From Meiothermus sp. (GTDB lineage: Bacteria; Deinococcota; Deinococci; Deinococcales; Thermaceae): DNA of 64,000 nucleotides. Shown one piece after another: positions 43,052 to 43,459 of the stretch. The notes beneath the pieces were generated by a model, which saw only the letters and a list, made by a program, of their open reading frames with translations, was not told where the DNA came from and did no database searches. Position 1 is the first letter of the stretch; every line of letters begins with the position of its first letter. Location of the stretch: NCBI GenBank assembly GCA_026004095.1, contig BPIL01000013.1, positions 1 to 64,000 on the forward strand. The letters run 5' to 3'. Made by a program: the position numbers and the translations under genes.

Positions 43052-43459
43052 GTGAGCACGATTTCTGGAGGCCGCTGGGTTGCCGAAATTTATGGCTGCA
43101 ACCTGGAAGTGCTTGAAAACCCCAAGCTGGTTGAACTGGCCTTGCGCGACGCAGTGTTCAAGCTGGGCGCTCCTCCCGGAAGCGTACAAGCCACGGTCTA
43201 CAAGTTCTACCCGCAGGGGCTTTCCGCCGCGGTGCTTTCGCCTGTGGCCGCGGTGATGATGCACACCTGGCCCGAGGACAAGGCCTCGGCCGCGCTCGAT
43301 CTTTACTTCTACAAACACGACGTAGACCCCGAATCGGTGCTGCGCGGGCTGGCCCGGGCCTTCGGTGCCCAGGAGGAATCGGCCTTCCGCTTCTGGCGCG
43401 GCAACGAGCACGAGATCAAACGCCGCGCCCAGGCTGCACATGCCAGCGACCCATCTTAA
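43052..43459 (+). CDS. SpeD-like (S-adenosylmethionine decarboxylase fold) protein lacking catalytic residues
   Basis: This protein of about 135 aa aligns without gaps to bacterial AdoMet decarboxylase around [10 protein letters not shown] and MMHTWPED. The pyruvoyl-forming motif ESH directly before it is replaced by VAA, so the cleavage Ser and its His are both absent. The downstream Cys region (DVFTCG in the family) reads DLYFYK. Autoprocessing should therefore be impossible. GTG 43052 is chosen because TAGGAT lies 8 nt upstream; ATG 43034 would add six residues. It is 47 bp before speE, so a regulatory or scaffold role in polyamine synthesis is possible. Confidence 0.75.

Follow-up and report, generated by a model that had tools for sequence, protein, structure and literature searches.

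A SpeD-family protein without its pyruvoyl serine beside speE in Meiothermus: a probable non-catalytic partner of a second SpeD

Introduction

S-adenosylmethionine decarboxylase (AdoMetDC) holds a key place in the synthesis of polyamines. The window analyzed here, a 64,000-nucleotide stretch of contig BPIL01000013.1 from Meiothermus sp. (assembly GCA_026004095.1), carries a gene of this family just ahead of speE, whose product uses decarboxylated AdoMet. An earlier note, made from the DNA letters, claimed that the family motif ESH had become VAA in this protein, and it suggested a bacterial counterpart of the trypanosomatid prozyme. Why would a SpeD-family protein that has lost the site of its own cofactor be kept beside speE? 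The protein is called SpeD1 below and the second SpeD of the same genome SpeD2. Published work is cited by PubMed Central number.

SpeD1 and its locus

The SpeD1 reading frame starts at a GTG with an AGGA 9 bases upstream, encodes 135 aa and is followed after 47 bases by speE (Table 1). Its product matches PF02675 (E 2.7e-21) and thus shows the SpeD fold expected of a class 1b AdoMetDC. With the NCBIfam AdoMetDC model TIGR03330 it reaches 52.4 bits, under the cut-off of 75.65, and the fold of the monomer is predicted to be intact. Directly 5′ of SpeD1 lies a 162 aa ORF (42520-43008, + strand), hydrophobic by eye, for which Pfam and NCBIfam gave no match.

Table 1. Features of the speD1–speE locus, in window positions; residue equivalents are those of Thermotoga maritima SpeD (1tlu)
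Feature	Position	Strand	Basis or remark
5′ extension, in frame, to an alternative ATG (43034)	43034..43051	+	Shares bases with the AGGA that the GTG at 43052 would use
SpeD1	43052..43459	+	SpeD fold, pyruvoyl Ser and catalytic Cys both absent; a proposed AdoMetDC subunit, non-catalytic
Phe52 (F49), kept, scaffold-side	43205..43207	+	Alignment
Ser58 (S55; human S229), kept	43223..43225	+	Alignment; S55 = S229 from PMC3975893
Val65-Ala66-Ala67 replacing Glu62-Ser63-His64, pyruvoyl site lost	43244..43252	+	Alignment to 1tlu
HTWPE, His71 (H68) and Glu75 (E72), both kept	43262..43276	+	Alignment
Tyr87 replacing catalytic Cys83	43310..43312	+	Alignment to T. maritima SpeD
speE, aminopropyltransferase, consumes decarboxylated AdoMet	43507..44445	+	PF01564 5.5e-48; NF002010 above cut-off

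Residues are numbered here after T. maritima SpeD, to which SpeD1 aligns without a gap from PQG to HTWPE. The alignment bears out the exchange of ESH for VAA, and it agrees with two further claims of the earlier note, that the region of the catalytic Cys is altered and that the HTWPE fold signature persists. In contrast to the class 1b enzyme of T. maritima, SpeD1 is without Ser63, Glu62, His64 and Cys83 and therefore should not make the cofactor. Judged by its residues, the SpeD-family gene adjoining speE in Thermus and Meiothermus very probably encodes a protein that cannot form its cofactor.

The dead form was found at all 57 SpeD1 places in Thermaceae and two related families. E62, S63 and C83 are absent from each of these sequences, with Ala or Gly at position 63 and Tyr or Phe at position 83, while F49, S55, H68 and E72 are present in each (57/57); H68 has a role in self-processing (PMC10407285). 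The conservation that the earlier note had asked about is also seen within the window's family, where all 48 speE-side copies from 50 genomes read SPVAA or SPVGA. A speE-like ORF lies 3′ of SpeD1 on the same strand at 57/57 places. The dN/dS ratio of SpeD1 is about 0.05-0.15 in eight of nine pairs, dS being saturated in the ninth, and SpeD1 is under purifying selection. A sequencing error or a young pseudogene was also considered as the source of the dead form, and is ruled out by its presence at 57/57 places together with these ratios.

A second SpeD and a proposed division of labor

A canonical speD elsewhere in the genome, for which the earlier note had advised looking, does exist. SpeD2 (G000:C7:16341-16799, − strand) has AESH and FSC intact and is the sole further PF02675 protein of the genome; the two genes are unlinked, speD1 lying on contig C13 and speD2 on C7. 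Among 56 tallied SpeD2 sequences, E62 and S63 are invariant and C83 and H68 are each kept in 55. Position 55 carries Thr 48 times, Ala 6 times and Ser twice, and position 72 is Lys in 32, Ser in 12, Glu in 5 and another residue in 7. Two copies that a filter had set aside from this tally (L032 and L086) have T55, with Glu and Asp at position 72. Apart from H68, SpeD2 is thus the reverse of SpeD1 in the residues that it retains. A SpeD2 copy from one fragmented genome in which no SpeD1 was found (L110 of G052) keeps S55 and E72 and has Val for Cys83.

How two such proteins could make one enzyme may be seen from the class 1b SpeD dimer, whose active sites lie between facing beta-sheets. One chain would give each site Ser63 (pyruvoyl), Glu62 and Cys83, and the other F49, S55, H68 and E72. 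We assume, in part on residue spacing, that these four side chains work across the dimer of T. maritima SpeD and that human F223, H243 and E247 are the equivalents of F49, H68 and E72, respectively. A heterodimer of SpeD1 and SpeD2 would keep a single composite site, with Glu62, Ser63 and Cys83 from SpeD2 and F49, S55, H68 and E72 from SpeD1. The SpeD1 residues would help SpeD2 to cleave itself and would then help to hold and decarboxylate AdoMet, and the product would pass to SpeE, encoded beside speD1. The mirror site would be dead, and so free to decay.

We put the probability that SpeD1 is the non-catalytic half of such a heterodimer, with one composite active site, at roughly two in three (0.68). 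This reading is favored because of the selective loss and retention of residues, the pairing of SpeD1 with SpeD2, the linkage to speE and the joint absence of the two proteins. The heterodimer, the direction in which residues would be donated and the need for SpeD1 are all inferred here from sequence comparison.

Work on other AdoMetDCs provides the frame for this reading. In the eukaryotic enzyme each half holds part of the active-site residues, and most bacterial enzymes, like the archaeal ones, combine the two sets (PMC1282579). S229 of the human enzyme, the equivalent of S55, is needed for activation, and His243 is required for the second step (PMC3975893). Mapped onto the eukaryotic halves, SpeD1 keeps the residues that act for the other chain and has lost those that would act for itself. 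In T. maritima SpeD, self-processing persists in the S55A variant (PMC3975893), so the change of S55 to Thr need not cripple SpeD2. Conservation of H68 in SpeD2 counts against the heterodimer, which would have no need of it there.

Distribution of the pair

Genomes, families (f) and genera (g) bear arbitrary labels of the genome search. Across 111 genomes of the window's phylum, both proteins were found in 56, SpeD1 only in 1 (a genome that is 65% complete), SpeD2 only in 2 (G052 and G071) and neither in 52. The association is strong (Fisher p 5e-28), and remains so without the 26 genomes of family f5 (2e-18) or when all 26 are counted as SpeD2-type (3e-9), relatedness being ignored in all three values. 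The pair is also present in families f2 and f4. Within the 50 genomes of the window's own family, 47 have two PF02675 places and no more, one (65% complete) has a single place, and G006 and G019 have none. A plasmid search with SpeD1 gave no match.

The 52 genomes with neither protein comprise 20 with no PF02675 match, the 6 of genus g13, and the 26 of family f5, which have diverged or other SpeD-like proteins. In f5 the Cys83 motif is absent from 21 of the 23 sequences read and present in L098 and L124. The strongly diverged f5 ORFs L123 and L125-L144 all lack this motif, some of them (e.g. L129, L130 and L132) also lack the pyruvoyl Ser, and no speE-like ORF occurs in the stretches examined around them. 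Each g13 genome has a PF02675 match over profile range 17-107 (E 1e-7 to 3e-6), and its residues, read in G059 and G060, follow the class 1a pattern; with the E. coli type model the protein of G060 reaches 203.9 bits, below the cut-off of 255.8. A speE-like ORF adjoins this gene in the 5 of 5 loci examined (all but that of G063). A further weak PF02675 match is found in G059 and in G062, the latter a very diverged ORF (L119). With the pair absent and a class 1a-type SpeD beside a speE-like ORF, the pair seems to have been replaced in g13 as a single unit, equivalent to one AdoMetDC. G006 and G019, which belong to one genus and are 100% and 92% complete, have neither a SpeD match nor the SpeE domain PF01564 but do have SpeA; the polyamine pathway that depends on decarboxylated AdoMet has apparently been lost there.

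The same genomes bear on another possibility, that SpeD2 is a neofunctionalized arginine or ornithine decarboxylase and that some other enzyme serves as AdoMetDC. Such decarboxylases can occur in genomes with two SpeD homologs (PMC10407285), and Thr55 of SpeD2 also marks the copies that, by our own inference from the diagnostic Thr of that paper, are labeled SpeDC-like. This is nevertheless very unlikely. A PLP-type SpeA scores above cut-off in 49 of the 50 family genomes, which leaves SpeD2 unneeded for the decarboxylation of arginine, and no remaining PF02675 protein could supply SpeE with decarboxylated AdoMet. A search of the 50 genomes with PF01536, the eukaryotic-type AdoMetDC, gave no match, and no positive control matched either.

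Genetics in Thermus thermophilus

In T. thermophilus HB27, speE is TTC0472, speD1 is TTC0473 and speD2 is TTC1093 (PMC4021367), and by these gene numbers SpeD1 and SpeD2 of that organism are very probably the same pair. The dead form lies beside speE in 27 of 27 genomes of genus g4 (Thermus), the speE match in one of them (G042) being in three pieces, so from this comparison SpeD1 of T. thermophilus should be dead too. The excerpts of the literature on it list it as an enzyme or a 'decarboxylase-like protein' and pass over the missing cofactor site. Among the matches listed in a search of open-access literature, judged by titles and the starts of abstracts, no bacterial AdoMetDC prozyme or two-gene AdoMetDC appeared.

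According to a review, a T. thermophilus strain deleted for speD1 makes no long or branched polyamines, and it does not grow above 75 C unless polyamines are added (PMC6418473). As speD2 is listed for this organism, SpeD2 alone seems insufficient, unless the deletion is polar on speE, which it may be.

A second dead clade in another phylum

A scan with SpeD1 of one genome per species (84,980 species) gave 41 loci, 27 of them SpeD1. It also led to G118, a metagenome-assembled genome titled Deltaproteobacteria bacterium AUK038, which encodes a SpeD2-type protein as well as a SpeD in decay. SpeD2-type proteins occur in 58 of 297 genomes of this phylum (E 1e-38 or better), and matches to the dead form in 32 of 395 (E 2e-24 or better). 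In the order of G155, 28 of 46 genomes have a dead SpeD, and 26 of these 28 have a second, weak match, 11 of which were confirmed as SpeD2-type. At 22 of 28 loci in this order, and at 14 of 14 further loci, the dead SpeD has a speE-like ORF no more than about 1.5 kb away. The dead sequences of 30 of the 32 genomes were read (all but G352 and G154); none has Cys83 and three keep Ser63. All 22 dead-SpeD1 genomes that the SpeD2 search also covered, for 20 of which the dead sequence was read, carry a SpeD2-type protein, as opposed to 58 of 297 overall (hypergeometric 5.6e-18, relatedness ignored).

This second dead clade comprises 41 distinct sequences; every one has F49, S55, H68 and E72 (41/41), none has C83, and 3 have S63. 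Of 25 positions invariant in 14 canonical SpeD proteins, the ones retained without exception in the two dead clades are F49, P51, G53, H68, T69, W70, P71, E72, D79 and R112; S55 is missing from this list as one canonical copy has Thr there. With TIGR03330, one of the dead proteins from the other phylum has a score of 77.4, above the cut-off of 75.65, a warning that family models name some dead subunits decarboxylases. A 122-row tree joins the two dead clades at 80/82, with a long-branch warning, and does not fix one origin against two; quick trees that omit one dead clade place the other loosely. Should the two dead clades be of separate origin, the proposed division of labor would have evolved more than once.

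The second clade also speaks to whether SpeD1 might cleave itself elsewhere and so be an enzyme in its own right. One example would be the Ser of SPVAA, at T. maritima position 60, which is invariant in SpeD1 of the window's group (57/57), but no Ser is fixed at that position in the other phylum's dead clade and the catalytic Cys is missing from all 98 dead sequences (57 + 41), which makes self-cleavage of this kind extremely unlikely.

The partner protein behaves differently in the two groups. SpeD2-type proteins that are paired with a dead SpeD1 in the other phylum keep S55 in 18/18 and E72 in 16/18, so the complementary decay on the SpeD2 side is confined to the window's group, and decay of SpeD2 is not a necessary consequence of the pairing. 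Moreover, 36 of the 58 SpeD2-type genomes have no dead-SpeD1 match. We sorted 20 second copies, from genomes of which 19 are among the 58, into 8 canonical ones beside a speE-like ORF, 6 SpeDC-like, 3 partly decayed with HSWPE, 2 dead and 1 very diverged. With 36 genomes giving no dead-SpeD1 match, and some having a canonical SpeD by speE, the SpeD2-type protein may act alone or otherwise there.

These 36 genomes would fit a self-sufficient, homodimeric SpeD2, with SpeD1 acting as a sensor of AdoMet, decarboxylated AdoMet or polyamines, or as a scaffold that channels decarboxylated AdoMet to SpeE. The constant presence of speE next to SpeD1 (57/57) and the retention of H68 in SpeD2 would suit such roles as well. 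Against them, SpeD1 tracks SpeD2 and not speE alone, genus g13 having a speE-like gene and neither of the two proteins, S55 and E72 are mostly gone from SpeD2 of the window's group, and the speD1 deletion strain is reported to be without long and branched polyamines. We consider these roles rather unlikely; for a scaffold for SpeE, or for the new ligand raised by the earlier note, gene adjacency was the only specific support found.

Two further sets of sequences may be recorded here. In the HSWPE clade of SpeD (L262, L263, L267 and L174/L199) decay of the cofactor side is graded, from ESY with Cys, through ESF with Ser, to SSF with Thr in the place of the Cys. S55, H68 and E72 persist, and L262, L263 and L267 each have a speE-like ORF beside them. 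In the phylum of G123, eight open frames of 269-278 aa (L321-L324, L328, L330, L331 and L333) are tandem SpeD2-like fusions. In their N half S55 and H68 are retained, Ser63 is replaced by Gly, and Cys83 and E72 are gone; their C half has AESH and FSC intact and a Thr near position 55. This dead/active order is the reverse of that in the eukaryotic enzyme, and no speE-like ORF was found within about 1.5 kb. A ninth genome, G828, gives the same two matches.

Comparison with known systems

A dead AdoMetDC paralog that helps an active one is well supported by these data. The trypanosomatid prozyme is likewise a dead AdoMetDC paralog that its active partner needs, as is proposed for SpeD1, and by sequence the window's genome holds both a dead paralog and a copy with intact active-site motifs. 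The prozyme is a full class 2 chain of two halves that forms an edge-to-edge dimer and acts allosterically (PMC5201418). In contrast, SpeD1 is half-size, its 135 aa aligning to residues 184-344 of 5tvm chain B, and a shared site is proposed for it. If the two-gene heterodimer is real, it would be a bacterial parallel to the prozyme.

A closer analogy would have SpeD1 bind SpeD2 and trigger a conformational switch, its own residues staying outside the active site of SpeD2. The trypanosome precedent, in which an autoinhibitory N-terminus is displaced (PMC5201418), and the pairing of a dead with an active paralog both lend themselves to this view. However, it fails to predict the retention of precisely the scaffold-side residues F49, S55, H68 and E72 in all 98 dead sequences alongside the loss of the pyruvoyl-side ones, and we regard it as unlikely. 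Of the prozyme idea in the earlier note, the part that stands is the dead paralog aiding an active one, to which pairing, conservation, the operon with speE and the deletion phenotype all point; allosteric relief of autoinhibition is disfavored by the residue pattern, which argues for a shared active site. Bacterial half-enzymes dimerize through their beta-sheet faces, and in T. brucei AdoMetDC Y243 and S249 contact the ligand (PMC5201418).

The neofunctionalized decarboxylases of the SpeDC/SpeDA type are expected to retain Ser63, H68 and Cys83 (PMC10407285), and SpeD1, without Ser63 and Cys83, is not one of these. A nearer likeness is to the fusions of SpeD with a degraded SpeDC in Victivallis vadensis and Desulfobacter, which, like the pair, combine an active SpeD half with a SpeD-like half that does not cleave itself, and which have been proposed as a step toward class 2 (PMC10407285). 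These fusions differ in joining a degraded ornithine decarboxylase half, whereas SpeD1 and SpeD2 are unlinked genes, the dead one lying by speE.

The C-terminal half of the eukaryotic class 2 enzyme resembles SpeD1 most closely in its residues. It does not cleave and keeps the Ser, His and Glu that serve the pyruvoyl of the other half, and SpeD1 has the partner-serving Phe, Ser, His and Glu with the pyruvoyl Ser and Cys gone (mapping from PMC1282579 and PMC3975893). The SpeD1 model aligns to about residues 169-318 of human AdoMetDC, also in the S68A proenzyme 1msv, a match that cannot tell SpeD1 from a canonical SpeD; an archaeal sequence also aligns to the eukaryotic C-terminal half (PMC1282579). 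A PDB search with a SpeD1-rich profile returned six bacterial SpeD proteins and one weak match, photosystem II protein D1 (E 1.7). The eukaryotic half is fused to its pyruvoyl half, whereas SpeD1 is a separate gene with a class 1b sequence. The evidence leans slightly toward bacteria of at least two phyla making AdoMetDC as an obligate two-gene heterodimer with one composite site, the unfused counterpart of the eukaryotic enzyme. If so, the pair would be the intermediate so far missing between the homodimers of bacteria and the fused enzyme of eukaryotes, and the evolution of a one-site pseudo-dimer becomes testable with small thermostable proteins.
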